From an uncultured Clostridia bacterium (GTDB lineage: Bacteria > Bacillota > Clostridia > Saccharofermentanales > Saccharofermentanaceae): a DNA stretch of 64,000 nt. Made by a program: the position numbers and the translations under genes. Under the pieces are notes generated by a model. The model was not told where the DNA came from and made no database searches. It saw nothing but the letters and a program-made list of their open reading frames with translations. Location of the stretch: the NCBI GenBank assembly GCA_905235455.1, contig CAJOLL010000001.1:1-64000 (forward strand), read 5' to 3'. How positions within the stretch are numbered: the first letter of the stretch is position 1; each line of letters begins with the position of its first letter. Below are positions 10,963 to 28,353 of the stretch, piece by piece.

Positions 10963-12282
10963 ATGGAAAAGAGATTTATTAAATTCAGTCCGCCGGATAT
11001 CAGCGAAACAGAGATCAATGAAGTATGTGACGCACTCCGATCCGGATGGATCACGACCGGGCCCCGAACCAAATTGTTGGAGAGAAGACTGGCTGCATAT
11101 ATCGAGACCGGACGTGTTGATGTGGATACTGAGTCTGATCCTGACCTTTGGTCTAACCGGGTGGCCTGCCTGAATTCGGCGACTGCCGCGGAAGAACTGA
11201 ATCTTCGTATTCTCGGTGTCGGGAAAGGTGATGAGGTTCTTGTTCCTGCTTATACATATTCCGCAACTGCATCTGCTGCGATCCACTGTGGCGCGACAGT
11301 GAAGTTTATCGATATTCAAAAAGATGGTGATCCTGTTACGCATATGCCGGAAATGGACTATGATAAACTGGCATCTGTGATCACGGAGAGAACAAAAGCC
11401 GTTGTTTGTGTTGATCTTGCCGGCATTGTCTGTGATTATGAAAAAGTGTTCAGCATTGTCGAATCCAAAAAATCGTTATTCCGTCCTATGGAGAGTGACG
11501 GATCTCCGCTTTCTGAGTTTTCGTCACGCATTCAGAAAGCGCTCGGCCGTATTGCCGTTGTTTCTGACTGTGCACATGGCCTGGGCGGAAGCAGGTCATT
11601 CCATGGGAAAGTGACAAATTGCGGTGCGCTTGCTGATTTTACGGGATTCAGTTTTCATGCAGTAAAGAACTTTACCACGGCGGAAGGCGGAGCATCAACC
11701 TGGAAGAGCATTCCGGGTATTGATGATGCTGAGATCTACAAGTTCTTCCAGCTGTTGAGCCTCCATGGGCAGAATAAGGATGCTCTTGCAAAAACAAAGG
11801 TTGGTGCTTGGGAATATGATATTATCGGACCATGGTACAAATGCAACATGACTGATATTATGGCGGCAATCGGATTAAAACAGCTTGACCGTTATCCGGG
11901 ACTCCTTGAGAGAAGAAAAGAGATTATCCGAAAGTATGATGACATTTGCGATGAACTTGGTATATCTCATCTGAATCATCATGTTCCTTCTATTGATAGC
12001 AGTAATCATCTTTATCTGATGCGTATTCCCGGAATTGATGAGGAGAAGAGAAATAAGATCATATCGAATCTTGCTGAACTTGGTGTTTCTACCAATGTCC
12101 ACTATAAGCCTCTTCCGATGATGACGGCATATCGTGAACTCGGCGCGGATATTTCCGATTTCCCGAATTCTTTCGATTATTATAGAAATCTGATCACACT
12201 TCCATTGCATACATTGCTTACAGATGAGGATGTTGAGTATATCTGTTCTTCTTTGAGAACTGTCATGAGGGAAAATATCTGA
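10963..12282 (+). CDS. PLP-dependent sugar aminotransferase (DegT/DnrJ/EryC1/StrS family)
   Basis: A 439-residue enzyme of the family that adds an amino group to nucleotide-linked keto sugars. The PLP-binding Lys235 lies in FSFHAVKNFTTAEGG; the N-terminal PPDISETEINEV block and the internal CLNSATAAEELNL are typical. It is longer than the usual ~370-390 residues because of an insertion near residues 160-190 (between CDYEKVFSIVES and RIAVVSDCAHG). It is the first gene of the surface-polysaccharide cluster and differs from the LegC-like aminotransferase at 21.4 kb, so the glycan probably contains a second amino sugar. SD is weak (TTGGGA). Its TGA overlaps the next ATG (TGATG). Confidence 0.88.
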   Translation: MEKRFIKFSPPDISETEINEVCDALRSGWITTGPRTKLLERRLAAYIETGRVDVDTESDPDLWSNRVACLNSATAAEELNLRILGVGKGDEVLVPAYTYSATASAAIHCGATVKFIDIQKDGDPVTHMPEMDYDKLASVITERTKAVVCVDLAGIVCDYEKVFSIVESKKSLFRPMESDGSPLSEFSSRIQKALGRIAVVSDCAHGLGGSRSFHGKVTNCGALADFTGFSFHAVKNFTTAEGGASTWKSIPGIDDAEIYKFFQLLSLHGQNKDALAKTKVGAWEYDIIGPWYKCNMTDIMAAIGLKQLDRYPGLLERRKEIIRKYDDICDELGISHLNHHVPSIDSSNHLYLMRIPGIDEEKRNKIISNLAELGVSTNVHYKPLPMMTAYRELGADISDFPNSFDYYRNLITLPLHTLLTDEDVEYICSSLRTVMRENI

Positions 12283-12977
12283 TGCTGAGAAATTGGAATG
12301 ATCTCCCTGAATACATGAGAGTGCCGGAAGTTAAACCATACTATGATGTCCTTAAGAAAAAAGGATTTCAGAGAGGCTGTAAGCGCGTGTTTGATATTTT
12401 TACGGCTGTTATTCTTTTGGTTTTGCTTGCTCTTCCGATGATCATCATCGCTATTCTTATCAAGTGTGACAGCAAAGGTTCGGTATTTTATCGACAGGAA
12501 CGAGTCACGAGATACGGGAAGCATTATCGCATCCATAAGTTCAGAACAATGGTGAATAATGCGGACAAAATCGGTTCTGCAGTTACTGTGGGTAATGACA
12601 GCCGTATCACAAAGATCGGTTCGAAACTCCGCGGATGCCGTCTGGACGAGCTTCCGCAGATTTTTGATATTCTGACCGGAAATATGAGTTTTGTCGGTAC
12701 CCGTCCTGAATCCGTGAAATATGTCGAGCAGTATCAGCCTGAATACTATGCCACTCTTCTGATGCCGGCCGGTATTACAAGTGAAGCATCGATCCGATAC
12801 AAGGATGAAGATAAGCTTTTAGATGAGGCTGACGATGTGGATCGCGTATATCTTGAGAGAGTTCTTCCGGACAAAATGAAGTGGAATCTGAAGAGTATCT
12901 CCGGATTTTCATTTGGCGGTGACATAATGACCATGTTCCGCACTGTTGCGGCTGTCGCAGGAAAGGATTATCAGTAA
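12282..12977 (+). CDS. Initiating undecaprenyl-phosphate sugar-1-phosphate transferase (PglC/WcaJ-like)
   Basis: A 231-residue membrane enzyme that should start repeat-unit synthesis by moving a sugar-1-phosphate from a UDP-sugar to undecaprenyl phosphate on the cytosolic face. It has a single hydrophobic segment (about residues 32-56) followed by the family signature (GSVFYRQERVT, HKFRTM) and the conserved DELPQ-FDILTGNMSFVGTRPE block. The short form without the four extra N-terminal helices of WbaP matches monotopic PglC-type enzymes. One-base overlaps on both sides (TGATG, TAATG) show tight coupling. Confidence 0.92.
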   Translation: MLRNWNDLPEYMRVPEVKPYYDVLKKKGFQRGCKRVFDIFTAVILLVLLALPMIIIAILIKCDSKGSVFYRQERVTRYGKHYRIHKFRTMVNNADKIGSAVTVGNDSRITKIGSKLRGCRLDELPQIFDILTGNMSFVGTRPESVKYVEQYQPEYYATLLMPAGITSEASIRYKDEDKLLDEADDVDRVYLERVLPDKMKWNLKSISGFSFGGDIMTMFRTVAAVAGKDYQ

Positions 12978-13795
12978 TGCCGAAGTTCAGTGTTTTGATG
13001 TCCTTATACATAAAAGAAAAACCGGAATATGCCCGGCAATGCTTTGAGAGCCTTCTCAATCAGACGGTGAGGGCGGATGAATGGCTGATCGTTGAAGACG
13101 GGCCATTGACAGAAGAATTGTATGCTCTCCTTGAGGAGTATGAGAAGAAATATCCCGGATTGATCAAAAGAGTTCCTCTCAAGCAGAATTCCGGACTGGG
13201 TCTTGCGCTTCGTGCAGGTGTTCCGGAGTGTACCTATGATCTGATCGCCAGAATGGATACGGATGATATTGCCGGAAAAGATCGTTTTGAAAAACAGCTT
13301 GCTGCTTTTCAAAACAATCCGAAAATCGATATTTGCGGATCTCAGATCGATGAGTTTGAGACTTCACCGGATGAGATCGTGGCTCATCGTACTGTTCCGG
13401 TTACGCATGATGAGATCGTGAAGTACCAGAAGAAAAGAGATGCTTTTAATCATATGACAGTCATGTATAAAAAAGAAGCTGTCTTGAAAGCAGGTAATTA
13501 CGAGTCCTGTCCGCTGATGGAAGATACGTATCTGTGGGTCCGGATGATCCAAAGCGGGGCTAACTGTATGAATATCGATGAACCACTTGTTTTTGCAAGG
13601 ATCGGACATGACATGTATGAGAGGCGCGGAGGCTGGAGTTATTTCAAAAAATACAAAACCGGCCGCAAGATGGTAAAAAAGACCGGGTTTATCAGCAGTT
13701 GGGATTATCACAAGACGATCATCATACAGTTTATCGTGGCTATGCTACCCGGAAAACTTAGAGGGTTTGTATTTAAGAAACTATTGCATAAATGA
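12977..13795 (+). CDS. Glycosyltransferase family 2
   Basis: A 272-residue GT-A fold transferase with FSVLMSLY and a ...ADEWLIVEDG loop at the N-terminus and DTDD (residue ~93) for metal and nucleotide-sugar binding. No signal peptide; probably works at the cytosolic membrane face. The likely donor is a UDP-sugar but cannot be told. SD AAAGGA lies 9 nt upstream; the start overlaps the previous stop. Confidence 0.9.
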   Translation: MPKFSVLMSLYIKEKPEYARQCFESLLNQTVRADEWLIVEDGPLTEELYALLEEYEKKYPGLIKRVPLKQNSGLGLALRAGVPECTYDLIARMDTDDIAGKDRFEKQLAAFQNNPKIDICGSQIDEFETSPDEIVAHRTVPVTHDEIVKYQKKRDAFNHMTVMYKKEAVLKAGNYESCPLMEDTYLWVRMIQSGANCMNIDEPLVFARIGHDMYERRGGWSYFKKYKTGRKMVKKTGFISSWDYHKTIIIQFIVAMLPGKLRGFVFKKLLHK

Positions 13796-13808
13796 TAAAG
13801 GTGGAAAA

Positions 13809-14690
13809 ATGAAGTCCAGCAAACAGATTTATTCTGAATATTTTAAAGAGTTCGAGATCGGCCCTGAAGGGATAAAAGCGCTTCATGAAGCACTTCTCGG
13901 GATGTTTATCGACATTAAGACCATATGTGATAAGCATAATATCAAGTGTATGCTCAGCGGCGGTACGCTCCTTGGTGCGATCAGGCACAAAGGCTTTATT
14001 CCGTGGGACGATGATATCGATATTATGATGGTCCGTGAGGAATACGAGAAGTTTGCACAGGTTTTCCCCGGTGAGTTCTCGGATAAATATGAACTTGTTC
14101 AGCCGCTGGAGCCCGGTTACTTTAATAAGCAGCCGAAGATCTTCAAAAAGGGAACGACTCTGGTCGAGATTCCGTTTGCCGGTGTACATCAGCATGATAA
14201 TCTTTTCATCGATGTTTTTATCATCGAGAATTGTCCGAAGCCGGGATTTCAAAGAAATTTCAGGGCTTTCAGGTATGATTTTGCATTTAAGGCGTCAAGT
14301 GCATGTATTGACTATAAGTATCCTTCCCCGGTAATACTTGAAAAAGGAAAAACCTGTGATGAAGTGCGGAAGTACTATAAAATGCGCAGAAGACTCGGCT
14401 TTCTGTTTTCGCATCTCGGCGGTATGAGGTTTTATTTGAAAAAATGTGATAAACTAGGAAGGTATCCGAAAAAGACCGGATGGCTTGCCGTTCCTTCCGC
14501 TATCAGCTATAAGCGGGAGATTCTGCCCGAAAAGGTTTTTGCCGAATTGACGCAGGGTGAGTTTGAAGGACTTTCCGTTACTATTCCGGCGGATTATGAT
14601 CAGTATCTGACAAATCTTTACAGGGATTATATGTCGATCCCTCCGGAGAATAAACGGGAGACGCACTACGCCAGTAAAATGGTATTGTGA
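13809..14690 (+). CDS. LicD-family phosphotransferase
   Basis: A 293-residue protein with the LicD signature: GGTLLGAIRH (51-60) and WDDDID (66-71), a nucleotidyltransferase-type metal site. LicD proteins transfer phosphocholine or another alditol/amine phosphate from a CDP-activated donor to glycans. The start at 13809 is chosen over an in-frame ATG at 13767 that lies in the previous gene; AGGTGG sits just upstream. The next gene is a CDP-donor-type cytidylyltransferase, so a CDP-alditol (for example CDP-ribitol) rather than CDP-choline is a plausible donor; no choline kinase is seen. Confidence 0.9.
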   Translation: MKSSKQIYSEYFKEFEIGPEGIKALHEALLGMFIDIKTICDKHNIKCMLSGGTLLGAIRHKGFIPWDDDIDIMMVREEYEKFAQVFPGEFSDKYELVQPLEPGYFNKQPKIFKKGTTLVEIPFAGVHQHDNLFIDVFIIENCPKPGFQRNFRAFRYDFAFKASSACIDYKYPSPVILEKGKTCDEVRKYYKMRRRLGFLFSHLGGMRFYLKKCDKLGRYPKKTGWLAVPSAISYKREILPEKVFAELTQGEFEGLSVTIPADYDQYLTNLYRDYMSIPPENKRETHYASKMVL

Positions 14691-14709
14691 TTTAGTGGGA
14701 GAAAACAGT

Positions 14710-15426
14710 ATGGCAAATATTGCACTGATTATAGCGGGCGGTTCCGGCAACAGAATGCATCAGGACATTCCCAAACAGTTTCTGACGGTCAATGAGCGGC
14801 CTGTCATTATCTATACGCTCGAAGCTTTTGAAAAACACCCGGAGATCGATGCGATCGGAGTTGTTTGTATTGAAGGCTGGGAACAGGTCCTGCAGGCATA
14901 TGCCAAGCAGTTTAATATTTCGAAGCTTAAGTATATCGCTCCCGGCGGAACGAATGGTCAGGGTTCGATCCGCAATGGTCTTTTCGAGCTCGAAAAGCAC
15001 TGTTCGCCAGATGATCTTGTTCTGATTCACGATGCGATCCGTCCGATGGTTTCAGCCGAGATCATTTCGGATAATATCCGTGTTGCCAAGAAGAACGGAA
15101 ATGCGATAACAGTTATTCCTTGTGCCGAAGCAATGCTTCAGACGGAAAACGGCGAAGTATCCACAGGAACATATCCGCGTGATGCCCTTAAGAGAACGCA
15201 GACACCTCAGGCTTTTCGTCTTGGTGACATATGTCAGCTCCATCGTGATGCGCTTGAAAAAGGCATAATTAATTCTGTTGCTTCCTGTACACTTATGATC
15301 GAGATGGGAAATCAGGTTTATTTTTCCGCCGGATCAGAAAAGAATATCAAACTTACAACAGTTGAAGATATCGACATTTTCAAGGCGCTTCTTGCAGCTT
15401 CCCGATCTGACTGGCTCAAAGAGTAA
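14710..15426 (+). CDS. IspD/TarI-family cytidylyltransferase
   Basis: A 238-residue enzyme that activates a sugar-alcohol phosphate with CTP. The N-terminus has ALIIAGGSGNRMH-IPKQF (residues 5-23), and HDAIRPMVS plus the GTYPRDALKRTQTPQ block are typical. IspD (isoprenoid pathway) and TarI (ribitol-5-phosphate) cannot be told apart by eye; location between LicD and an SDR in a glycan cluster favours making a CDP-alditol for transfer by LicD. The start at 14710 follows GGGAG by 8 nt; a GTG at 14695 has no SD. Confidence 0.85.
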   Translation: MANIALIIAGGSGNRMHQDIPKQFLTVNERPVIIYTLEAFEKHPEIDAIGVVCIEGWEQVLQAYAKQFNISKLKYIAPGGTNGQGSIRNGLFELEKHCSPDDLVLIHDAIRPMVSAEIISDNIRVAKKNGNAITVIPCAEAMLQTENGEVSTGTYPRDALKRTQTPQAFRLGDICQLHRDALEKGIINSVASCTLMIEMGNQVYFSAGSEKNIKLTTVEDIDIFKALLAASRSDWLKE

Positions 15427-15434
15427 GGTGGTCT

Positions 15435-16496
15435 ATGCTGTTTCAGAATGAGCAATGGCAAAATGATATAGATTTAGTACTGCCAGTTTTCGAGGAACTC
15501 TCCTCGGAAAGCGGCAGTTCGTTTTTCATTACCGGATCTTGCGGACTGATCGGTACTGCCGTCGTCCATGCGCTGCTCCGCTTTAATGATAAATATAAAA
15601 CGAATTTCCGGGTAATAGCAACGGGCAGAACAAAAAAATCACTTGATGAGAGGTTTTCTGATTGTAAAGACAGGAAAGACCTGATTCTTTCTTTATTTGA
15701 TGCGGAAAGGCCGGCGATCGATCCTTCTGTAAAAATCGATTACATCATTCATGCCGCGAGCAATGCCTCGCCCAAGGCGATTATTGAAAATCCGGTCGAG
15801 ACCTTGACGGGAAATATCGTCGGTCTTTCGTATCTGCTTGCTTATGCGAAAGAAAACGCTGTAAAGAGAGTACTTTTTGTATCCAGTTCGGAAGTGTATG
15901 GGAGAAAAGACCGGACCACCCCGTCGCAGGAAACGGAATACGGAACCATTGATCCTTTAAATCCGCGAAATGCATACTCCTACGGCAAATGTGCCGCTGA
16001 AACTCTGTGTGTCTCTTTCTTGCACGAATATGATGTGGATTCCGTGATCGTTCGTCCCGGACATATTTTCGGGCCCACTTGTTCTGAAAAAGATGTCAGA
16101 GTTTCCTCTGCGTGGGCGTATGATTGTGCTTCCCGTAAGGATATCGTTATGAAAAGCGCCGGTTCGCAGATAAGAAGTTACTGCTATTGCCTCGACTGTG
16201 CTTCTGCTATCCTTAAAGTCCTTGTAAAAGGGGAAAAGGGGCAGGCATATAATATCTCCAATAGAGATTCTATCATGAGCATCAGAAAACTCGCTGAGAT
16301 CATGACTACGCATGCCGGTGTCAAACTTGTTACGGATATCCCATCGGAAGAGGAGGCAAAAGCATTTAATCCGATGGAGAATTCATCGCTGGATAGCACA
16401 AAGCTCGAAAATCTCGGGTGGGAGGGAGTTTTTGACGCTGCATCAGGCGTGTCTCATACGATCGATATTCTTAGGGAGGTGAGTGTGCTTGAGTAA
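15435..16496 (+). CDS. NAD-dependent epimerase/dehydratase (extended SDR)
   Basis: A 353-residue enzyme with Rossmann motif FITGSCGLIGTA (residues ~30-41), Ser-Ser-Glu-Val-Tyr (about 154-158) and catalytic YSYGKCAAE. It resembles nucleotide-sugar epimerases/dehydratases. Because it follows LicD and the cytidylyltransferase, it may act on a CDP- or UDP-sugar used in the same decoration; the exact reaction is unknown. It overlaps the next gene by a few bases. Confidence 0.85.
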   Translation: MLFQNEQWQNDIDLVLPVFEELSSESGSSFFITGSCGLIGTAVVHALLRFNDKYKTNFRVIATGRTKKSLDERFSDCKDRKDLILSLFDAERPAIDPSVKIDYIIHAASNASPKAIIENPVETLTGNIVGLSYLLAYAKENAVKRVLFVSSSEVYGRKDRTTPSQETEYGTIDPLNPRNAYSYGKCAAETLCVSFLHEYDVDSVIVRPGHIFGPTCSEKDVRVSSAWAYDCASRKDIVMKSAGSQIRSYCYCLDCASAILKVLVKGEKGQAYNISNRDSIMSIRKLAEIMTTHAGVKLVTDIPSEEEAKAFNPMENSSLDSTKLENLGWEGVFDAASGVSHTIDILREVSVLE

Positions 16497-17628
16497 GAAA
16501 ACTCCGTCACTTCTTAAGGATTCATGTTATTTCTGCACATCTACTTACCAGCTTTTCTCGATTCTTTCTCTGGCGATCAGCCGCGATGAAAAGTCTGATC
16601 TGTTTATCGATCCGCAGTTTGCAGATGCCGAAGCAATCGCGCAGAGAGTCGAATCTCTGGGCATTTTTGAAGGCGTGTATATTATTGATTCCAAGAAGAT
16701 ATACAGCAAATACATTTCCCGTGAAAGCGGCATAATCAATCATCTTCAGATTGCCCGTACCTATTTTCATGTCGGCAGTATTTCGAATATCATTGTTTCC
16801 AATAATGCCACATACAAGAATATCTTTGTTTCATCGCGTGCTTTTATCCCGCGCCTTTATATTTTGAACTGCTATAAGAAAAAACAGGATGTTAAAGTGT
16901 ACTATTTTGATGATGGTGTCGGCAGCTATTACGGAAACAGTGCACTGAATCCGAGTAAAGCAGACGGAATGGTCCGGAAAGTGCTTTTCGGGAAGAAGGC
17001 GCTTGATTTTGACCAGGACCGGTATCTGATGTTTCCTGAAATGTATAAGAAAATCAACGGGGAAACACCGTATCAGGTTTGGGAAATCGACAGATTCTTT
17101 GACCATCCGCAGTATTCAGATGTTCTGGATAAGGTTTTTGTACCCGGCAACGATGTAGCACTTCCGGAATCGGCAGTCATTCTTGAGGAACTTTCCGGCT
17201 CGTTCGGGAAAAACAAAGAAAAACTGAATTCTCTTTATGAATATACACTTAAAGCATTCGGGTCATCTGATCTTATAATGAAGAGACATCCGAGAAGTAA
17301 AGAAGAAAAACGGAAAGGCTTTCGGTATTATCAAAAATCTGAACTCCCGTTTGAGATCCTTTGCATCCGTAACGATATGAATAAGAAAGTGCTTATCTCT
17401 GTCGGAAGTACTGCTCTTTCTACGCCGAAGATGATTACCGGTCAGGAGCCGTATGTTGTTTTGCTTTATAAGTTTATACAGAATGAAGGTATGAATCAGG
17501 CTCCTCTGGATCATTTTTTTACGGCATTGAAGGAATCATACAGTGATTCTGACAAAGTAATGATTCCGAATTCTTTTGAAGAATACAAAGAATGCATTGT
17601 GAAGATACTTGGAGAGATACGCCGATGA
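16489..17628 (+). CDS. Sialyltransferase-like glycosyltransferase (GT52-like)
   Basis: A 379-residue soluble protein. The N-terminus (CYFCTSTYQLFSILSLA) is the first strand-helix typical of GT52-type transferases. Two motifs shared by bacterial sialyl- and polysialyltransferases are present: Asp141-Asp142-Gly143 (YYFDDGVGSYYG) and His267-Pro268 (KRHPRS), followed by a Ser/Thr-rich SVGSTALST block near 305. In those families the motifs bind and activate the CMP-sugar donor. That fits the CMP-nonulosonate made by the LegF-like enzyme in the same cluster. Start: TTG 16489, 9 nt after GGGAGG; GTG at 16483 is too close to the SD. Family call is by motif only. Confidence 0.7.
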   Translation: MSKKTPSLLKDSCYFCTSTYQLFSILSLAISRDEKSDLFIDPQFADAEAIAQRVESLGIFEGVYIIDSKKIYSKYISRESGIINHLQIARTYFHVGSISNIIVSNNATYKNIFVSSRAFIPRLYILNCYKKKQDVKVYYFDDGVGSYYGNSALNPSKADGMVRKVLFGKKALDFDQDRYLMFPEMYKKINGETPYQVWEIDRFFDHPQYSDVLDKVFVPGNDVALPESAVILEELSGSFGKNKEKLNSLYEYTLKAFGSSDLIMKRHPRSKEEKRKGFRYYQKSELPFEILCIRNDMNKKVLISVGSTALSTPKMITGQEPYVVLLYKFIQNEGMNQAPLDHFFTALKESYSDSDKVMIPNSFEEYKECIVKILGEIRR

Positions 17629-18755
17629 GTGAATCATTTAATGTGAAAAATCAGATCATAACACTCGCCGGATGTCTGTATTTTGTGGCAATGACACTTC
17701 TGACTCAGAATGAGTCTCTGCCATTACAGCTGTTTTGGTATGCTTCGATTCTTTTCGGAGCTGCCGTAACTTGTGTTGTAAATCTCCATATGTTCAAAAG
17801 AAATCTTATTTTCTTTCTCCTGATGTTTGCTGCTACCGGCGTTGCGAATCACTTTATCATCGGCTCAATATCCATTAAACCGTTCGCACTTATGTTTATC
17901 CAGTTTTTTATAGCGTTGCTTTTCCTGAATAAAAGGTTTGATTATAAGGCGCTTTTGGCAATAGTGCTGCTCAACGGCGGCATTATAATTCTCAAGTTTA
18001 TGACTGTCGGCTTCTGGGGAGATCTGTATATCAATTCCTCAAACAACTTTGTCTCCGTTTACATGCTTTATCCGACCGTATTGTATTACTGTCTTGCCGA
18101 AGATCGTAATGAAAAACCGTATTTATGGCCGGCTGCATTTCTGTGGATCATGAGCCTTCTTTCTCGCGGTCGTGGTGGCATTATTGCATCTACGTTCCTT
18201 TTCGTCGGCATATTCTATGTGATGTATAGAAAGAGAAAACGTGATTTCCGTGCACTTTTTCTGATCGTGTTGGTTATCTTTATTTCTGCCGTTGCGGTAA
18301 ATATCGACAGGATCATTAACATGATCAACAGCTCTATGATATCTGAAACTTTCCGTGACCGCGGAATGAACAGTTCGCGTATATTCCTCTGGAAAGACTA
18401 TCTGAAACTGACATTTTCCGAGAAAAAATACCTTATCTTCGGCACAGATATCCATAAGACGCTTGCCTGGGAGAGATATGCCGGAAACTCACATAACAGT
18501 TATATCAACATCCACACTTATAATGGTCTGATCTGTTTTGTCTATGTGATGGTTATTCTTGTGAAGAACGTGCTTCAATCGATCAGATATAAGAGACCAT
18601 TCTACTTTTTCTGCCTTGGCACACTCCTTTTCCGGGCGTTTACCGATAATGTTTTCTGGATGACTTACGGCACGGTGACGCTGTTTGTTATGATGTTCCT
18701 GTTTTCTGTTCCGGAAAAAATCTCGAAGAATAAAGAGGTCAAAGAATTTAATTAA
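17625..18755 (+). CDS. Wzy-like O-antigen/polysaccharide polymerase or ligase
   Basis: A 376-residue integral membrane protein with about ten hydrophobic segments and a larger polar extracytoplasmic loop near residues 235-300 (RGMNSSRIFLW, AGNSHNSYINI), the layout of O-antigen polymerases/ligases. RGRGG after a membrane segment (about 186-190) and the SHNSY pattern are typical of that superfamily. Expected job: polymerise lipid-linked repeat units outside the membrane. The ATG at 17625 overlaps the previous TGA (ATGA) and has GGAGAG upstream; an earlier in-frame ATG lies in the preceding gene. Confidence 0.82.
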   Translation: MSESFNVKNQIITLAGCLYFVAMTLLTQNESLPLQLFWYASILFGAAVTCVVNLHMFKRNLIFFLLMFAATGVANHFIIGSISIKPFALMFIQFFIALLFLNKRFDYKALLAIVLLNGGIIILKFMTVGFWGDLYINSSNNFVSVYMLYPTVLYYCLAEDRNEKPYLWPAAFLWIMSLLSRGRGGIIASTFLFVGIFYVMYRKRKRDFRALFLIVLVIFISAVAVNIDRIINMINSSMISETFRDRGMNSSRIFLWKDYLKLTFSEKKYLIFGTDIHKTLAWERYAGNSHNSYINIHTYNGLICFVYVMVILVKNVLQSIRYKRPFYFFCLGTLLFRAFTDNVFWMTYGTVTLFVMMFLFSVPEKISKNKEVKEFN

Positions 18756-18757
18756 GT

Positions 18758-20179
18758 ATGGATAATAAAATTGAGGGAAAAGCACTAAAAGCAGGTACAT
18801 GGTATACTATCTCCAATTTTCTTATGAGAAGTATCGGTATTCTGACGACGCCGATTTTCGGAAGATTATTAACGGAAGGTGAATTTGGAGCATATAGTAA
18901 TTTCACTACCTGGCTAAGCATTTTGACAATCTGTATTACGCTGAATCTGGATAGTACTTTTATCAGCGCCAGATACGATTTTGAGGATTCATTTGATGAA
19001 TATATTCTTTCCGTATTGGGATTAAGCACGATTTCTTCGATTGTATCGATATTTCTTCTGAATCTTGTGTTCCCGCTGATCCAGCCGATCTTACTGATCG
19101 ACCGGTTTTATCTTAACTGCCTTTTGGTATATCTTGTTTTTCTGCCGGCGGTCAATATGTTTCAGGCAAGAGAAAGATATTACTATAAGTACAAAATGTC
19201 GGTGTTCCTTAGTTTCCTTGTTTCTATCGGAACAGCGCTTCTTTCGGTCGTGCTTGTACTGGGAATGGGTAACCGCCTTACCGGTCGAATCATCGGCAGC
19301 CTGATACCAACGATTTTGATCGGAATTGTGCTTTATGTAGTGATCATGAATCTCGGCAAACGGCATTTTGTTACCTCATATTGGAAATATGCAATTAAGA
19401 TCTGCCTTCCTTTTATCCCGCACCTTTTATCCATGTCGCTTCTGAATTCCATGGATAAGACTATGATTACGAATATCTGCGGAGAAGAAGCAAATGGTCT
19501 ATACAGTATGGCATATACCTGCGGATCGTTGGTTTCTATTCTTATTGTATCTATGAATTCCGCTTTCTCGCCTTGGCTTGGACAAAAGCTTAACGAGAAA
19601 AAATATAAGGATATCAATTCGTTTTCCAAAACGTATATCCTTCTATTCAGCGCAATGGCAGTAATGATGATGCTATTTGCGCCGGATATCCTTTATCTGA
19701 TAGGCGGGCATAAGTATCTGTCAGCGCTTTATGTTATGCCGCCGGTCGCCTGCGGCTGTATTTTCCAGTTCCTTTACACTCTGTACGTAAATGTTGAACA
19801 GTTTACTAAAAAGACAGTTGGAATGGCTATTGCGAGTGTATCTGCAGCACTTTTGAACTTTATTTTGAATTCTGTTTTTATTCCGAAATTCGGATATATC
19901 GCAGCAGCATATACAACACTTGCCGGATTTGCATGGCTTCTGGCAGCTCATATTATCATTGTCAGGATCTATAAAATGCAGAAGGTATACCCCAATAAAC
20001 TGGTCGGACTTGTAGCTACGATATCTGTTGTTCTGACTGTTTCAATAAATCAGATGTATGATACTCCGATATTCAGATACATTTTCGGCGGTATTTATAC
20101 GGTATGCCTGATGTGTGTTATTATAAAGAATAAGGATAAACTCTTAGTGGTATTAAAAAGGAAGAAGAAAAATGTTTAA
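18758..20179 (+). CDS. Wzx-like polysaccharide flippase
   Basis: A 473-residue MOP-superfamily membrane protein with about 12-14 hydrophobic segments. The N-terminus (AGTWYTISNFLMRSIGILTTPIFGRLLT followed by GEFG) is the classic oligosaccharide-flippase start. Role: move the undecaprenyl-linked repeat unit from the cytosolic to the outer face. The SD is weak (AGAGG about 20 nt upstream); translation is probably coupled to the polymerase gene, which ends 2 nt earlier. Its end overlaps the next gene by 8 nt. Confidence 0.92.
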   Translation: MDNKIEGKALKAGTWYTISNFLMRSIGILTTPIFGRLLTEGEFGAYSNFTTWLSILTICITLNLDSTFISARYDFEDSFDEYILSVLGLSTISSIVSIFLLNLVFPLIQPILLIDRFYLNCLLVYLVFLPAVNMFQARERYYYKYKMSVFLSFLVSIGTALLSVVLVLGMGNRLTGRIIGSLIPTILIGIVLYVVIMNLGKRHFVTSYWKYAIKICLPFIPHLLSMSLLNSMDKTMITNICGEEANGLYSMAYTCGSLVSILIVSMNSAFSPWLGQKLNEKKYKDINSFSKTYILLFSAMAVMMMLFAPDILYLIGGHKYLSALYVMPPVACGCIFQFLYTLYVNVEQFTKKTVGMAIASVSAALLNFILNSVFIPKFGYIAAAYTTLAGFAWLLAAHIIIVRIYKMQKVYPNKLVGLVATISVVLTVSINQMYDTPIFRYIFGGIYTVCLMCVIIKNKDKLLVVLKRKKKNV

Positions 20180-21380
20180 TCTTGAACAGTTTATAGGTAA
20201 ACATGTTACTTTTAGAGAAAAATCCATGTTCCTTAATGATATTGAACGGAACAGGGAAGAATTGTCAAATAAGATAAAAGGGAAGTCTGTTCTCGTTATC
20301 GGCGGCGCAGGAAGCATCGGATCATCGTTTATCAAGGCGATCCTTCCTTTTCAGCCATCTACACTCGTTGTTGTAGATATTAATGAAAATGCACTTGCCG
20401 AGCTTACCCGAGATCTCCGTTCGACTCCCGGAATGTATGTACCTGAGGATTATATTCCTTATCCGATGGATTTTGCAGCTCCGGTCTTTGAGAAGATGTT
20501 CAGAGAAAGAGGCGGCTTTCAGATCGTCGGTAATTTCTCTGCGCATAAGCATGTCCGTTCCGAAAAGGACATTCATTCTGTTGAGGCCTTGATCCAGAAT
20601 AATGTTATCCATGCAAAAGGACTTCTGGATCTGCTTTCCGAGTATCCGCCGGAAGAATACTTCTGTGTATCCACAGATAAAGCGGCAAACCCGGTAAACA
20701 TCATGGGCGCATCCAAGAGAATCATGGAGGACCTTATCTTCAGTTATTCAGATAAGTTCCCGGTAAAAACAGCACGTTTTGCAAATGTTGCTTTTTCAAA
20801 CGGCTCACTTCCTGCCGGCTGTCTTGCCCGTATATCCAAGCTTCAGCCTATCTCGGCGCCTTCTGATGTGCGACGCTATTTTGTATCTCCGGAAGAATCC
20901 GGTCAGATCTGCATGTTATCCTGTATGCTTGGTGAAAACAGAGCGATCTTTTTCCCGAAACTAAAAGAAGCACAGATGATGACATTTGATGCAATTGCTA
21001 CTGCACTGATCGAGGAACATGGCTATTCTGTTTTGAAATGTGCTTCCGATGCTGAGGCTATCGAGAAGTCCAAAGCACTTAAAAACGGATCCACGGAGTA
21101 TCCTGTCCATTATGCTGTTTCTGATACTTCCGGTGAGAAGGCATTCGAAGAATTTGTCACAGACACTGAAACAGCTGACATAGAGCGTTTTGACGCACTT
21201 GGAGTTATTACCGGAAAACCTGTTCCGAATAAGGATTCTGTGTTAAAACTCTGTTCAGATCTGAATTCTGCTTTTGAACAGGGATCAACAACTAAAGCGC
21301 AGATCGTAGATATCATGAAAGATTATCTTCCGAATTTTCAGCATATTGAGACCGGAAAGAGTCTCGACAGTAAGATGTAA
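20172..21380 (+). CDS. legB: Nucleotide-sugar 4,6-dehydratase, LegB-like
   Basis: A 402-residue CapD/FlaA1-type SDR. GGAGSIGSSF (44-53) binds NAD(P); the STDKAANPVNIMGASKR block near 170 carries the catalytic Asp-Lys and substrate region of HexNAc 4,6-dehydratases. In legionaminic acid synthesis LegB turns GDP- (or UDP-) GlcNAc into the 4-keto-6-deoxy sugar used by the aminotransferase encoded next. It starts within the end of the flippase gene with AAGGAAG as SD. The C-terminal ~80 residues are longer than in the minimal enzymes. A UDP-GlcNAc inverting dehydratase (pseudaminic route) is the alternative; the neighbours favour the Leg route. Confidence 0.8.
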   Translation: MFNLEQFIGKHVTFREKSMFLNDIERNREELSNKIKGKSVLVIGGAGSIGSSFIKAILPFQPSTLVVVDINENALAELTRDLRSTPGMYVPEDYIPYPMDFAAPVFEKMFRERGGFQIVGNFSAHKHVRSEKDIHSVEALIQNNVIHAKGLLDLLSEYPPEEYFCVSTDKAANPVNIMGASKRIMEDLIFSYSDKFPVKTARFANVAFSNGSLPAGCLARISKLQPISAPSDVRRYFVSPEESGQICMLSCMLGENRAIFFPKLKEAQMMTFDAIATALIEEHGYSVLKCASDAEAIEKSKALKNGSTEYPVHYAVSDTSGEKAFEEFVTDTETADIERFDALGVITGKPVPNKDSVLKLCSDLNSAFEQGSTTKAQIVDIMKDYLPNFQHIETGKSLDSKM

Positions 21381-21399: not shown

Positions 21400-22578
21400 A
21401 TGTGTGCTTATATCCCGCTTTCCATTCCAAACTTCGAGGGAAATGAGAAGAAGTACGTAAATGATGCTGTAGAACAGGGCTGGGTATCCACCGGTGGCGC
21501 ATACATCACCAAGCTTGAACAGGAACTTGCCAAATTCCTTCATACGGAAAATGTGGCTGCTTGTCAGAGTGGTACTTCAGCGCTTCATCTTTCTCTTGTT
21601 CAGGCCGGAGTTAAGCCCGGAGATGTAGTTCTCGTTCCTCCGCTGACATTTATAGCTGCCGTAAATCCGGTGAAATATCAGTTTGCTACACCTGTATTTA
21701 TCGATTGTGATGACAGTTTCTGTATCGATCCGGTCAAACTCCGTGCTTTCTGTGAAAACGAGTGCCGTTATGAAGACGGTGTTCTTACATATCAGAACAA
21801 GCCGGTAAAAGCTCTTGTTGTTGTCCATGTTTTCGGCAATCTCGCAGATATGGAATCAATTATGGATACAGCGAAGAAATATTCGCTGAAAGTGATCGAA
21901 GATGCTACAGAAGCTCTCGGCACTCATTATACAGAAGGGAAACTTGCCGGCAAATATGCCGGAACTATCGGTGATTTTGGCGCTTTCAGTTTTAACGGAA
22001 ACAAGATCATCACTACCGGCGGCGGTGGTGCGGTTACTTCGAATGATTCGAGTGTTGTCGATCATCTGAGATATTTATCCACACAGGCAAAGAATGATCC
22101 GCATTATTACATCCATGATGAGATCGGGTATAACTATCGTATGACAAATCTTCAAGCGGCTCTTGGTGTTGCTCAAATGGAAGAACTTCCTGAGTTCATC
22201 CGCAGGAAACAGGCAAACTATGAACTGTATATGAAAGAATTCGAAGGCTTTGATCTTGCTGAACTGATGCCTTTCCGTGAGGGTACATCTTCAAATAAGT
22301 GGTTCTATTCACTTTGTATCGATCGATCCAGAATAACGGCGACGATGCGTGAAATTATAACAGCACTTGACGGGAAGGGCATCCAGACCAGAGCAATCTG
22401 GGGCTTGATCAATGAACAGAAGCCCTATGATCATGAGATCACATATCAGCTTGAAAAAGCTCCGTACTATGCGGACCGCATCCTGAATATTCCTTCCAGC
22501 ACACAGATCACAAAAGAAGAAATCTCATATGTTGCACAGCAGGTAAAACAGCTTCTTGAGGAATTAGCCAATGGATAA
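21400..22578 (+). CDS. legC: PLP-dependent aminotransferase, LegC-like
   Basis: A 392-residue DegT/DnrJ-family enzyme with PLP Lys202 in FSFNGNKIITTGGGG and the RMTNLQAALG block near 247. In the legionaminic pathway it aminates C4 of the 4-keto-6-deoxy-HexNAc nucleotide. It lies between the LegB-like and PtmE-like genes and overlaps the latter by 8 nt. The IPLSIPNFEGNEKKYV start and GTSALHLSL block match the nonulosonate subgroup. Role assigned mainly from neighbours. Confidence 0.85.
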   Translation: MCAYIPLSIPNFEGNEKKYVNDAVEQGWVSTGGAYITKLEQELAKFLHTENVAACQSGTSALHLSLVQAGVKPGDVVLVPPLTFIAAVNPVKYQFATPVFIDCDDSFCIDPVKLRAFCENECRYEDGVLTYQNKPVKALVVVHVFGNLADMESIMDTAKKYSLKVIEDATEALGTHYTEGKLAGKYAGTIGDFGAFSFNGNKIITTGGGGAVTSNDSSVVDHLRYLSTQAKNDPHYYIHDEIGYNYRMTNLQAALGVAQMEELPEFIRRKQANYELYMKEFEGFDLAELMPFREGTSSNKWFYSLCIDRSRITATMREIITALDGKGIQTRAIWGLINEQKPYDHEITYQLEKAPYYADRILNIPSSTQITKEEISYVAQQVKQLLEELANG

Positions 22579-23626
22579 AATGGAAATCGAAAACTTTATC
22601 GGCAGAAATGATCCTCTCTTGTCAAAGGCTATGCAGGCGATCGACAATAATGCGAACGGGATCCTTTTCCTTGTGGATGAAAATGATCGTCTTTTCGGAT
22701 GTGTTACCGATGGTGATATCAGACGATTCCTTCTTGCCGGCGGGAAGATTACTGATCAGGTAAGCAGGGCGGCGAATCTCAAGCCGTTAATTGCTCGTTC
22801 TTCTGATGAGGCGAAGCGGCTGTATCACAAAAAGAATTACGTAGTGATCCCGATCGTGGACGGTGAGGGCCGTATCATTGATCTTTATAACGGCTCCGGA
22901 AATGAGAAGAAAAGAAGCGCGCTGAATCTCCCTGTTGTTATCAACGCAGGAGGGCGTGGCACACGACTGGATCCTTTTACCCGCGTTCTGCCAAAACCTC
23001 TGATTCCTGTCGGTGAGCTTCCGATCATTGAATTGATCATGCAGGAGTATCAGAGCTATCACTGTGATGAGTTTCATATTATCGTGAATTACAAAAAAGA
23101 ACTGATGAAGGCATACTTCAACGATAACGAGAATCACTATAATATCAGCTGGTATGATGAGACGGTACCTCTCGGTACAGGCGGTGGTCTTAGCCTTTTG
23201 AAGGGTAGGATGCATGATACTTTCTTCTTTGCGAATTGTGATGCTCTTCTTACCGCGAATTATGAACGCATGGTTGAGTTTCATAAGCAGAATAATAATG
23301 TGATCACTATTATCGGTGCGGTCAAGAATATCAGCATCCCGTATGGTGTGATCGAAATGGGCATCAACGGCGCAATTGAGGAAATGAAGGAGAAACCGGA
23401 GTTTTCTTTCATAACTAACACGGGGATCTATATTGTGGAACCGGAAGTCGTTGAGGAAATGGAAGATAATGTCAGTATCGGATTCCCTGATGTTGTTGAG
23501 CTTCAGAAACAGCGTGGAAAACGCGTTGCCGTTTTCCCGATAAGTGAAAATGAATGGATGGACATGGGTCAGCTTCCTGAACTTGAACGGATGCGCAACA
23601 GACTTTATGGAGAAGGACAGGTATGA
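22571..23626 (+). CDS. ptmE: CBS-domain sugar-1-phosphate nucleotidyltransferase, PtmE-like
   Basis: A 351-residue protein with two parts: a CBS pair (about residues 8-110, with FLVDENDRLFGCVTDGDIRR) and a nucleotidyltransferase (about 115-350, with VVINAGGRGTRLDPFT and LPKPLIPVGELP). This fusion is typical of PtmE, which in Campylobacter makes the GDP-activated glucosamine that starts legionaminic acid synthesis. The CBS pair may sense an adenine nucleotide. Start overlaps LegC; a second in-frame ATG lies 9 nt later. The end overlaps the next gene as ATGA. Confidence 0.88.
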   Translation: MDKMEIENFIGRNDPLLSKAMQAIDNNANGILFLVDENDRLFGCVTDGDIRRFLLAGGKITDQVSRAANLKPLIARSSDEAKRLYHKKNYVVIPIVDGEGRIIDLYNGSGNEKKRSALNLPVVINAGGRGTRLDPFTRVLPKPLIPVGELPIIELIMQEYQSYHCDEFHIIVNYKKELMKAYFNDNENHYNISWYDETVPLGTGGGLSLLKGRMHDTFFFANCDALLTANYERMVEFHKQNNNVITIIGAVKNISIPYGVIEMGINGAIEEMKEKPEFSFITNTGIYIVEPEVVEEMEDNVSIGFPDVVELQKQRGKRVAVFPISENEWMDMGQLPELERMRNRLYGEGQV

Positions 23627-24258
23627 CGAAAAGACTACTTCTAATTGGCGGAGGCGGACATTGTGCCTCGATTCTTGATTCTGTCCTAAGATCCGGACAG
23701 TTCGAGAAAGTCGGGATCGTTGATAGTAATGATCAGATCGAGCGATTGGGGATTTCTGTTGTCGGAAGTGATGATGATCTTCAAAAACTGTTTGACGCCG
23801 GCTGGACAGATGCTTTTGTATCTGTCGGAAGTGTAGGAAATGTCTCGATCCGTCGGGAACTCTATGCAAAGATCAAAGAGATCGGCTTTTCGATTCCATC
23901 GATCATTGATCCGACATCGGTTATTGCTTCGGATGTTGATATAGCAGAGGGCTGTTTTGTCGGTAAGTCCGCAGTAATTAATTCCGGCGCGAGGATCGGT
24001 TTGTGTGCGATTATTAATACAGGAGCTGTTGTTGAACATGACTGTGCAGTCGGAGATTTCTGCCATGTTTCTCCAGGCTCGATCCTTCTCGGAGGTGTTC
24101 ATGTCGGCGAGAATACCCATGTTGGTTCAGGATCTGTTGTAAAACAAGGCATTCAGATCGGATCTGACACCATGATCGGACAATTGAGTAATGTCTTATC
24201 AGATATTTCATCCGAAGTAACTGCTTATGGAAATCCTTGTAAGGTGGTGACCCAATGA
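23623..24258 (+). CDS. NeuD/PglD-family sugar acetyltransferase
   Basis: A 211-residue protein: an N-terminal Rossmann-like PglD domain (LLIGGGGHCASILDSV, residues 5-20) and a C-terminal left-handed beta-helix of hexapeptide repeats (from about residue 95: DVDIAEGCFVGKSAVINSGARIG). It should acetylate the 4-amino group using acetyl-CoA, the LegH step, or O-acetylate the finished nonulosonate as NeuD does. ATGA overlaps on both sides place it firmly inside the pathway block. Confidence 0.85.
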   Translation: MTKRLLLIGGGGHCASILDSVLRSGQFEKVGIVDSNDQIERLGISVVGSDDDLQKLFDAGWTDAFVSVGSVGNVSIRRELYAKIKEIGFSIPSIIDPTSVIASDVDIAEGCFVGKSAVINSGARIGLCAIINTGAVVEHDCAVGDFCHVSPGSILLGGVHVGENTHVGSGSVVKQGIQIGSDTMIGQLSNVLSDISSEVTAYGNPCKVVTQ

Positions 24259-25247
24259 GCGTATTTATCATTGCTGAAGCAGGCGTAAATCATAACGGGA
24301 GTCTTGAACTTGCAAAGAAACTGGTCGATTGTGCAAAAGAGGCCGGTGCGGATTGTATTAAGTTTCAGACTTTTAAAGCGAAAAACCTCGTGTCTCCCAT
24401 AGCGCAGAAAGCCGAATACCAGAAGAAGACGACCGGAGATGATTCTCAGTTTTCTATGCTGAAAAAACTCGAACTCTCCTATGATGAGTTTATCGAACTG
24501 AAAGAGTATTGCGATCATTCCGGAATATGTTTCCTTTCCACGCCTTTCGATTTTGACAGTATCGATTTTCTTTCCTCACTTGACATGCCATTCTGGAAGA
24601 TCCCTTCCGGCGAAGTGACAAACTATCCGTATCTGGTTGCTTTGGCCAAAACAGGAAAACCGATCGTGATGTCCACCGGCATGTGCGAGATGAATGAAAT
24701 TGAAGAAGCAATAAGAGTCCTTTGCGAAAACGGCGCAAAGGAAATATCCCTTTTGCATTGTAATACCGAGTATCCGACTCCCTTTACAGATGTCAATCTC
24801 AAAGCAATGGAGACATTAAGAGAAGTCTTCGGCCTAAAGGTGGGGTATTCCGATCATACAAAAGGTATCGAAGTGCCAATTGCTGCAGTTGCTCTCGGTG
24901 CTGCGATCATCGAGAAGCATTTTACGCTGGACAGAAATATGGAAGGCCCTGACCACAAGGCCAGTCTTGAACCATCCGAACTGAAGTCCATGATCAGCTC
25001 CATTCGAAATATCGAGCAGGCGATAGGTTCTTCTGAGAAGAAACCGTCTGATTCCGAAAAGAAAAACATAGCTATTGCAAGAAAGAGCATTGTTGCTAAG
25101 TGCAAAATCAATAAAGGCGAGATCCTTTCTGAGTCGAATCTTACCGTAAAACGACCGGGGAACGGTATTAGTCCGATGAGATGGCCGGATGTGCTCGGAA
25201 CTATTGCAATACATGATTTTGAAGAGGATGATCCGATAGAAGTATGA
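24255..25247 (+). CDS. legI: Nonulosonic acid synthase (NeuB/LegI-like)
   Basis: A 330-residue enzyme that condenses phosphoenolpyruvate with the six-carbon amino sugar to give the nine-carbon acid. The N-terminal TIM barrel begins EAGVNHNGSLELAKKL with IKFQTFK; TPFDFDSID and KIPSGE are typical of NeuB. A C-terminal SAF/antifreeze-like domain spans about residues 270-330. Legionaminic rather than sialic acid is inferred from the neighbouring LegB/LegC/PtmE genes. AAGGTGG is the SD; ATGA overlaps both neighbours. Confidence 0.92.
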   Translation: MSVFIIAEAGVNHNGSLELAKKLVDCAKEAGADCIKFQTFKAKNLVSPIAQKAEYQKKTTGDDSQFSMLKKLELSYDEFIELKEYCDHSGICFLSTPFDFDSIDFLSSLDMPFWKIPSGEVTNYPYLVALAKTGKPIVMSTGMCEMNEIEEAIRVLCENGAKEISLLHCNTEYPTPFTDVNLKAMETLREVFGLKVGYSDHTKGIEVPIAAVALGAAIIEKHFTLDRNMEGPDHKASLEPSELKSMISSIRNIEQAIGSSEKKPSDSEKKNIAIARKSIVAKCKINKGEILSESNLTVKRPGNGISPMRWPDVLGTIAIHDFEEDDPIEV

Positions 25248-26398
25248 AGAAAATAGCTGTAATTACTACAACCCGTGCTGAATATGGACTTCTTAAGCCT
25301 GTGGTCGAACAGCTTCGAAAGTATGAGAATGAGGATATCCGAATAGAACTTGTTGTCTCCGGTACTCATTTATCTTCTCGTTTTGGCATGACTGTGGATG
25401 AGATCGACCAGCGTATCGATCATAAGATCGAGATTCCCGTTAATACGGATTCTGATCTGGATATATCGAAGAACCAGGCGGAAGCACTCATTCGGTTTAC
25501 AGAATTATTTATTTTCCAAAAATATGATGCCGTCGTTGTGCTTGGCGACCGGTATGAGATGCTCTCGGTTTCCATAGCGGCAGGAAACACCAGAACTCCG
25601 GTATTTCATCTTTGTGGCGGTGATACGTCGGAAGGTGCACTTGACGAATGGATCCGTCATTCGATCTCAAAAATCAGTTATCTGCATTTTGTTACCAATG
25701 AAGTCAGCCGCAAACGCGTTATCCAGCTTGGTGAGGATCCGTCCCGAGTTTTTAATTTCGGTTCTACGAGTATAGATAATATTCTTACGATTGCAGATAT
25801 GGAAAAGTCTGAAGCTCTGGAGAGCATAGGTCTTTCAGATTGTGATTACGCGCTCTGCACTTACCATCCTGTCACGACAAAGGATGAGGATCCGAAAAGT
25901 CAGATCGATGCTTTTCTGGATGCCGTCAAATCATTCCCGGATCTTACCTTTATCGTGACGAAATCCAATGCGGATCGTGGCGGTGAATTTATTAACCGTA
26001 TGCTCGATGATGCTGAAAAAACAATTTCCAACTTGCACGTGTTTGCGTCACTTGGCGTCCGCAGGTATCTTTCCCTGATGAAATATTCGAAGTTTGTGCT
26101 TGGAAACTCTTCCAGCGGCATTATTGAGACCCCGGCTTTTCATATTCCGACAGTCAATATCGGCGATCGTCAGCGTGGACGTCTGCAGTCGGAAAGCATA
26201 ATTAACTGCGGTGAAGATAAAAATGCTATAATATCTGCTATTTCAGAAGCTCTTTCCGAGCGTCACATGAAGATATGCCGTTCCGTTGTAAGTCCTTATG
26301 GTGACGGTAATGCGGCATCCAGGATCGCCGACAAGGTGATCGAGTGTGTTTGCCGCGGGCAGATCGACTTAAAGAAACATTTTTATGACCTTCAATAA
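25244..26398 (+). CDS. legG: Hydrolysing nucleotide-sugar 2-epimerase (NeuC/LegG-like)
   Basis: A 384-residue GT-B-fold enzyme that removes the nucleotide and inverts C2 to yield the free ManNAc-type sugar used by the synthase. VLGDRYEMLS (about 95-104), HLCGGDTSEGALDEWIRHSI and the C-terminal GNSSSGIIETP (about 289-299, UDP-binding) are diagnostic of NeuC-type enzymes. Gene order acetyltransferase-synthase-epimerase matches nonulosonate loci. Confidence 0.92.
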   Translation: MKKIAVITTTRAEYGLLKPVVEQLRKYENEDIRIELVVSGTHLSSRFGMTVDEIDQRIDHKIEIPVNTDSDLDISKNQAEALIRFTELFIFQKYDAVVVLGDRYEMLSVSIAAGNTRTPVFHLCGGDTSEGALDEWIRHSISKISYLHFVTNEVSRKRVIQLGEDPSRVFNFGSTSIDNILTIADMEKSEALESIGLSDCDYALCTYHPVTTKDEDPKSQIDAFLDAVKSFPDLTFIVTKSNADRGGEFINRMLDDAEKTISNLHVFASLGVRRYLSLMKYSKFVLGNSSSGIIETPAFHIPTVNIGDRQRGRLQSESIINCGEDKNAIISAISEALSERHMKICRSVVSPYGDGNAASRIADKVIECVCRGQIDLKKHFYDLQ

Positions 26399-26412: not shown

Positions 26413-27381
26413 ATGAATGTTGTAGTAATAGGTTTAGGTTCGATGGGAAAAAGAAGGATCCGTCTCATTTCCGAGATGTTCTCCGAGTATGTGATCTTCG
26501 GCGTAGATAGCAGGGAAGACCGGAGAACGGATGCTTCCTCCTTATTCGGTATCACTTGCTTTGATTCCCTGGACAGCATCGATCAGGAGGTGCAGTGCGC
26601 TTTTGTCTGCACATCTCCTTTGTCTCACGCTGCGATCATTAAGACCTGCCTGAATAAAAAATGGAATGTCTTTACTGAACTCAATCTTGTTGAAGACGGG
26701 TATGATGAGAATATCAAGCTTGCAAAGAAAAATGACTGTAAGCTTTTCCTGTCTTCCACGTTCTTTTATCGTGAAGAGATCCGTTATATCCGTTCGAAGA
26801 TCGATAATTCGAAAAAATGGAATTATATTTACCATGTGGGCCAGTATCTTCCGGACTGGCATCCGTGGGAGGATTATAAGGATTTCTTTATTGGAAACGA
26901 GCGAACAAACGGCTGCCGTGAGATCCTTGCTATTGAATTGCCCTGGCTTACGGGTACTTTTGGAAAGGTGAAGGATCTTCGTGTTCTGTCTGACAAAATG
27001 ACAGGCTTGAACATCGGATATAAAGACAATTTCCTTATTCAGGTCGAGCATGAAGATGGCAACAAGGGTATGCTGATCGCAGATGTTGTTTCTCCTGTAG
27101 CTGTTAGAAAGCTCGAGGTGTATTCGGAGGGAGCCTATTACAGATGGGATGGTACTCCGGACAGTATCAAGGAGTTTAATCCGGATACAAAAGCACTGGA
27201 TGACGTTCAGCTTACCGAACAGACTGAACATGAGTCCGGATACAGTACATTTATTGTAGAAAATGCTTACAAAAATGAGATCCGAGAGTTTTTCTCCGTG
27301 GTTCTGGAAAACAAAGAACCGCTTTACGGATTCGAGCAGGACAAGAATACACTGGCGCTCATCCAGAGAATAGGAGCGTAA
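26413..27381 (+). CDS. Gfo/Idh/MocA-family oxidoreductase (first of two)
   Basis: A 322-residue NAD(P)-dependent oxidoreductase. VIGLGSMGKRRIR (residues 5-17) is the dinucleotide fold and TELNLVEDGYDENIKLAK (about 84-101) occupies the position of the family's EKP loop, although the usual EKP is replaced by ELN. The C-terminal half is the beta-sheet catalytic domain. Such genes are common in legionaminic clusters, where their step is not fixed. SD TAGGAGAT is 8 nt upstream. It is 2 nt from a second, related gene. Confidence 0.82.
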   Translation: MNVVVIGLGSMGKRRIRLISEMFSEYVIFGVDSREDRRTDASSLFGITCFDSLDSIDQEVQCAFVCTSPLSHAAIIKTCLNKKWNVFTELNLVEDGYDENIKLAKKNDCKLFLSSTFFYREEIRYIRSKIDNSKKWNYIYHVGQYLPDWHPWEDYKDFFIGNERTNGCREILAIELPWLTGTFGKVKDLRVLSDKMTGLNIGYKDNFLIQVEHEDGNKGMLIADVVSPVAVRKLEVYSEGAYYRWDGTPDSIKEFNPDTKALDDVQLTEQTEHESGYSTFIVENAYKNEIREFFSVVLENKEPLYGFEQDKNTLALIQRIGA

Positions 27382-27382
27382 G

Positions 27383-28318: not shown

Positions 28319-28353
28319 ATGAATAGTTCAAATTATATTCGGGGGTGGAAGAA

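Follow-up and report, generated by a model that had tools for sequence, protein, structure and literature searches.

CpsK, the capsule sialyltransferase of streptococci, works in a Gram-positive host and makes a single addition within a Wzy-dependent capsule. It is listed with two motifs, D/E-D/E-G and HP, in PMC2169525, where the motifs and their mutants are defined and CpsK is placed near Pfam 05855; the GT52 lipooligosaccharide sialyltransferases carry both motifs as well (PMC2169525; papers are cited throughout for the excerpts of them that we drew on). SpsB of B. subtilis, a TagB-domain protein with DEG and HP, adjoins legionaminate genes and is dispensable for legionaminate transfer (PMC7439481), which calls for caution when a transferase is inferred from motif and neighbourhood. 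Maf4 is described as a putative flagellin legionaminyltransferase (PMC11356810). An initial sequence-only reading of the DNA analysed here held that few legionaminyltransferases have been characterised, and the excerpts bear this out: no enzyme transferring legionaminic acid onto cell surfaces was reported as of 2020 (PMC7439481), and in 2024 information on legionaminyltransferases was very limited (PMC11356810). Among open-licence papers, covered mostly by listing, we found no legionaminyltransferase for a Gram-positive polysaccharide.

The window, a stretch of 64,000 nucleotides from an uncultured Clostridia bacterium, encodes a candidate CMP-legionaminate transferase. It resembles the GT38 polysialyltransferases (NeuS of E. 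coli K1, the M. haemolytica enzyme of PDB 5wcn and that of N. meningitidis B) in its PF07388 match, in its DDG/EEG and HP motifs, which are in register, and in counterparts of the CMP-site residues. Unlike them, it gives no significant BLASTP match, has no basic residue aligned with R259 and is accompanied by legionaminate, not Neu5Ac, genes; its locus has Wzx and a Wzy-type protein where theirs has an ABC capsule exporter. With the GT52 enzymes it shares both motifs, and a distant relative in genome G329 matches PF07922. Up to E 1, no hit to PF07922 appears for the candidate itself. CpsK, likened to the candidate by description only, differs in using a sialic acid donor. Like SpsB, the candidate combines HP and D/E-D/E-G with a place beside legionaminate genes in a Gram-positive, but SpsB has a TagB domain and the candidate belongs to PF07388. 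The flagellin transferases Maf and FlmG also use CMP-nonulosonates, but have protein acceptors and belong to other families; the candidate's own genome contains one match, below cut-off, to PF01973, which we take to be the Maf family.

The candidate is a PF07388 protein with both motifs in register with NeuS

The reading frame can open at TTG 16489 or at GTG 16483, the longer form having 381 aa. A GGAGG at 16475-16479 lies 9 nt before the TTG and 3 nt before the GTG, a spacing that favours the TTG. Translation from there reproduces the motifs that had been noticed from the sequence, DDG at 141-143 and HP at 267-268; a second HP occurs at 206-207. A broken gene is ruled out by the open frame of 381 aa and by homologs of 360-382 aa without internal stops. 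A background set of 236 ORFs of 250 aa or more, drawn from 20 loci, contains the pair of D/E-D/E-G and HP at a spacing of 100-160 in two cases, which are neighbouring-genome counterparts about equal in length; among 20,000 shuffles of the candidate, 108 contain it. It is present in all 11 homologous ORFs and in 3/3 more distant ones, with spacings of 124 to 141 (the G104 copy was overlooked by the ORF picker used for this count, and alignment A1 shows both motifs there). Set against its presence in 11/11 homologous ORFs, this rarity rules out a chance pair.

A profile search, which the sequence-only reading had proposed, gave the polysialyltransferases as the best family. The match to PF07388 (A-2_8-polyST, alpha-2,8-polysialyltransferase) reaches 46.7 bits against a curated cut-off of 23.3 (E 4e-12) and aligns residues 16-319 with profile positions 3-307 of 316. 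It is the sole Pfam match of the candidate at E 0.01 or better, and the candidate is the sole PF07388 match across its own genome. With the threshold at E 1, every one of the 11 proteins in the family alignment A1 hits PF07388, and a single one hits GT52 (PF07922) as well, at 4e-5; the G030 member scores under the PF07388 cut-off. For the distant relative in G329, the PF07922 match stands at 2e-14 and the PF07388 match is weak, so that on these profile scores the candidate's group can be placed between GT38 and GT52. No match to the candidate was found in NCBIfam, nor in the PDB with the single sequence; a profile search of the PDB brought up three unrelated chains, all of them weak matches that we take as chance; the best, an immunity protein, has E 0.011.

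As a characterised yardstick we used NeuS of E. coli UTI89, which phmmer links to the solved M. haemolytica enzyme 5wcn. BLASTP of the candidate against NeuS is not significant (E 1.3); a profile comparison with NeuS alone gives E 0.0012. Against a GT38-type set of three members, two E. coli proteins and one from S. meliloti, hhalign gives E 1.5e-5 with A1 and 8.8e-6 with A4. The scores are 47.2 and 48.6; when the columns were shuffled 100 times for each alignment, the highest scores were 24.6 and 21.3. The A1 alignment places D141-D142-G143 on E163-E164-G165 of NeuS, and H267-P268 on the HP of NeuS; the A4 alignment spans the HP part only. The AlphaFold2 model of the candidate, built from three sequences (the candidate and two 86% relatives), is poor, with a pLDDT of 39.5.

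A complete legionaminate route in the same operon

Besides a complete legionaminate route, the operon encodes Wzx and a Wzy-type protein, and other transferases in it are few (Table 1; we use the Leg and Ptm gene names in what we take to be their usual sense). The CMP-nonulosonate synthetase that had been reported downstream of the candidate is indeed there, about 11 kb away and after the whole nonulosonate pathway.

Table 1 Features of the operon and predicted functional residues of the candidate transferase.
Feature	Position	Strand	Basis
DegT-type sugar aminotransferase	10963..12282	+	PF01041
Initiating sugar-phosphate transferase	12282..12977	+	PF02397
GT2 glycosyltransferase	12977..13795	+	PF00535
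LicD-family transferase	13767..14690	+	PF04991
IspD-type cytidylyltransferase	14695..15426	+	PF01128
NAD-dependent epimerase/dehydratase (SDR)	15435..16496	+	PF01370
Candidate CMP-legionaminate transferase	16489..17628	+	379 aa from TTG 16489 (381 from GTG 16483); PF07388
Q21, probable counterpart of Q44 near catalytic base	16549..16551	+	Invariant in A1; matched by eye; PMC5517516 (excerpt)
D141-D142-G143; D142 = proposed catalytic base	16909..16917	+	A1; NeuS alignment
K265-R266-H267-P268-R269, predicted cytosine and phosphate contacts of CMP site (HP motif)	17281..17295	+	NeuS register
E289 (in P-F-E), proposed ribose contact	17353..17355	+	Invariant in A1; PxE match
S307-T308, proposed phosphate contacts	17407..17412	+	A1; NeuS alignment; PMC5517516 (excerpt)
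Wzy-type polymerase/ligase	17592..18755	+	PF04932, 32.0 bits vs cut-off 31.7
Wzx-type flippase	18758..20179	+	PF01943
LegB-type 4,6-dehydratase	20172..21380	+	PF02719; PDB 3pvz E 4.9e-95
LegC-type aminotransferase	21400..22578	+	PF01041
CBS + nucleotidyltransferase (PtmE-type)	22571..23626	+	PF00483, PF00571; PDB mannose-1-phosphate guanylyltransferases
NeuD/LegH-type acetyltransferase	23623..24258	+	TIGR03570 above cut-off
NeuB/LegI-type nonulosonate synthase	24255..25247	+	PF03102; TIGR03569 above cut-off, PseI model below
NeuC/LegG-type hydrolysing 2-epimerase	25244..26398	+	TIGR03568; PDB 5zlr E 1.4e-69
Two Gfo/Idh/MocA oxidoreductases, perhaps nonulosonate tailoring	26413..28318	+	PF01408 twice
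CMP-nonulosonate synthetase (NeuA/LegF type), divergent	28345..29127	+	PF02348; PDB 6ifd E 5e-13

A member of the same enzyme class using another CMP-ulosonate, be it Neu5Ac, a pseudaminic-type sugar or Kdo, is an unlikely reading, though several observations point towards it. Sialyltransferases and beta-Kdo transferases have the HP motif in common (PMC5517516), the operon has a divergent CMP synthetase, several homologs adjoin nonulosonate genes unlike the legionaminate set, and both NeuB and NeuC exceed cut-offs named for N-acetylneuraminate synthesis. Against this reading, NeuB falls below the PseI cut-off, and the operon holds a complete LegB, LegC and PtmE-type set. In the PDB, NeuC matches the GDP/UDP-diacetylbacillosamine 2-epimerase 5zlr (1.4e-69) far better than the UDP-GlcNAc 2-epimerase 4neq (2.9e-14), with the bifunctional epimerase/kinase 4zht at 1.4e-36; legionaminate is therefore favoured over Neu5Ac.

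The LicD, IspD-type and SDR genes stand in a row (13767-16496), and the trio is retained in several relatives. This suggests a further addition to the repeat unit, of an alditol activated by CDP or some similar phosphate group. The pair of oxidoreductases (26413-28318) travels with the legionaminate route in G110 and G030 and is absent from G104, G098 and G109; it may tailor the sugar, for instance at C8. ElaA of A. baumannii, for 8-epilegionaminate, is also termed a putative oxidoreductase (PMC9676051), and we set it beside the pair by description only. In the two clusters of nearest type, NeuA is separated from the second oxidoreductase by a hexapeptide-type transferase gene (G110, L050:1352-2026; G030, L061:17935-18600). 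At 28319-28357 the window has just 12 codons matching both ends of that gene, which looks like its near-complete in-frame loss; elsewhere in the same genome, partial matches to it reach 31-34% only.

Most homologs occur with nonulosonate synthase genes

Homologs of the candidate are present in 11 of 115 genomes of the family, and a full-length NeuB (>200 bits) in 16. In every homolog-bearing family genome (11/11), the contig with the homolog also carries a full-length NeuB, no more than about 24 kb away; the NeuB genomes without a homolog (5/16) are G085, G024, G108, G009 and G040. Together with searches of the order and the phylum (188 and 398 genomes, partly overlapping), 17 genomes gave a match; in 14 of these the matching contig also has a full-length NeuB, the greatest distance being about 33 kb, in G548. 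G147 and G158 have a homolog but no NeuB, and G216, a weak fragment match, has no full-length NeuB. The hypergeometric value for co-occurrence is 6e-12, or 3e-10 with near-duplicates collapsed; it ignores kinship and so overstates independence. A scan of genome contigs found two loci, both in Clostridiales MAGs from yak rumen and omasum, and on the basis of these nearest relatives the host would be Gram-positive. Among viral contigs, 34 stretches fitted the search pattern and none was confirmed as a relative; searches of phages and plasmids found none.

Legionaminate might instead be transferred by another protein, such as the GT2 at 12977 or a TagB-type enzyme encoded elsewhere, with the candidate adding something else. 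Other contigs of the genome give three matches to PF04464 (TagB-type), the case of SpsB shows how motif and neighbourhood can mislead, and in G024 no PF07388 gene accompanies a related cluster of backbone and legionaminate genes. We nevertheless judge this very unlikely, since NeuB is close by in every family genome with a homolog, and since the G030 cluster, where no GT2, LicD or SDR match is found, keeps both the pathway and a PF07388-type protein. This last arrangement counts in favour of the PF07388-type protein as the legionaminate transferase.

Predicted active site and proposed reaction

The M. haemolytica enzyme uses E153 as its base and H291 to stabilise the CMP as it leaves; K289 recognises the cytosine, E323 contacts the ribose, S339/T340 contact the phosphate, and Q44 is a neighbour of the base (PMC5517516). 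The respective counterparts in the candidate would be D142, H267, K265, E289, S307-T308 and Q21, as derived by alignment through NeuS and, for E289, S307-T308 and Q21, partly by eye and motif order. H267, P268 and R269 are invariant in A1, and E289 stands in P-F-E where the aligned enzyme has P-A-E. The acceptor contact K293 corresponds to R269; no basic residue of the candidate aligns with R259, another acceptor contact, in a stretch that aligns poorly and where the S. meliloti protein also lacks a basic residue.

We consider it probable that the candidate is an inverting, GT38/GT52-like CMP-nonulosonate transferase by which a single legionaminic acid, or a derivative of it, is attached to a lipid-linked repeat unit. 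The proposal of a legionaminyltransferase in the sequence-only reading thus gains support from the PF07388 match, the motif register with NeuS, the gene content and the co-occurrence with nonulosonate synthesis. From these features of the sequence we infer the activity, acceptor, linkage and single addition, and from the pathway genes the donor. Against the proposal stand the non-significant BLASTP with NeuS, the A4 alignment confined to the HP part, the G030 member below the PF07388 cut-off, the 5/16 NeuB genomes without a homolog, the absence of NeuB from G147 and G158 and of a full-length one from G216, and the precedent of SpsB.

The donor would be CMP-legionaminic acid (Leg5,7Ac2 or a derivative), supplied by the downstream genes, its CMP held through K265, H267-P268, E289 and S307-T308. 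The acceptor is presumably a lipid-linked repeat, which the sugar transferase at 12282 would begin and the GT2 at 12977 would lengthen. D142, as the base, would deprotonate an acceptor hydroxyl, which would attack C2 of CMP-legionaminate in an inverting direct displacement; H267 and S307-T308 would stabilise the CMP as it departs. A metal site is not expected, following a general statement on sialyltransferases in PMC7439481. After the addition of a single legionaminate, Wzx would flip the unit and the Wzy-type protein would polymerise it. Despite its Pfam name, the candidate is probably not a polymerase, since Wzx and a Wzy-type protein in the operon favour one addition per repeat over poly-legionaminate; that it builds a nonulosonate chain, as the family name and the K293-R269 correspondence would have it, is most improbable next to these two genes in place of an ABC capsule exporter and the non-basic R259 position, the poor alignment there and the similar S. 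meliloti protein notwithstanding.

With proposed catalytic residues, a complete donor pathway and few competing transferases, the candidate makes the question directly testable. In gut Clostridia, the proteins that PF07388 labels "polysialyltransferase" probably include other kinds of nonulosonate transferase.

Variation among related clusters

Across 14 clusters, the identity of the transferase tracks the backbone genes; the idea that it follows the type of nonulosonate found no support. G104, G098 and G109 retain the aminotransferase, sugar transferase, GT2, LicD and IspD with 71-86% identity and the transferase with 58-65%. Their clusters lack NeuD and have FemAB/GNAT-type acyltransferase genes instead, and their NeuC and NeuA share 35-39% and 26-30%. 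In G030 the legionaminate genes are kept at 46-82% overall (NeuB 78%, NeuC 69%, the oxidoreductases 63-70%, LegB 79%, NeuA 46%), and the PF07388-type transferase is at 25%.

That the transferase stays with the backbone in the first three genomes and drops in G030 leads us, from these identities, to a tentative proposal: the Clostridia branch of PF07388 may consist of nonulosonate transferases that make a single addition, owe their specificity to the acceptor and are tolerant towards the donor. If so, one acceptor-tuned enzyme would attach whichever nonulosonate variant the cassette supplies, and cassette swaps would alter the surface without a new transferase.

In G024, the Wzy-type and flippase-like genes flank a gene (L097:463-1800) for a protein of 445 aa that has an HP motif and matches nothing in Pfam; it is possibly an unrelated replacement transferase. 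G039 has a PF07388 protein of its own (35.8 bits; L065:8885-10009) about 1 kb after NeuB, in the second nonulosonate cluster of that genome. In G092 a CMP-sugar synthetase is fused to a HAD-type hydrolase domain (PF02348 + PF08282; L063:8879-10057). The legionaminate genes of G085 adjoin a protein bearing the Thoeris ThsA macro domain (PF20016, E 1.8e-41; L066:13632-14480).
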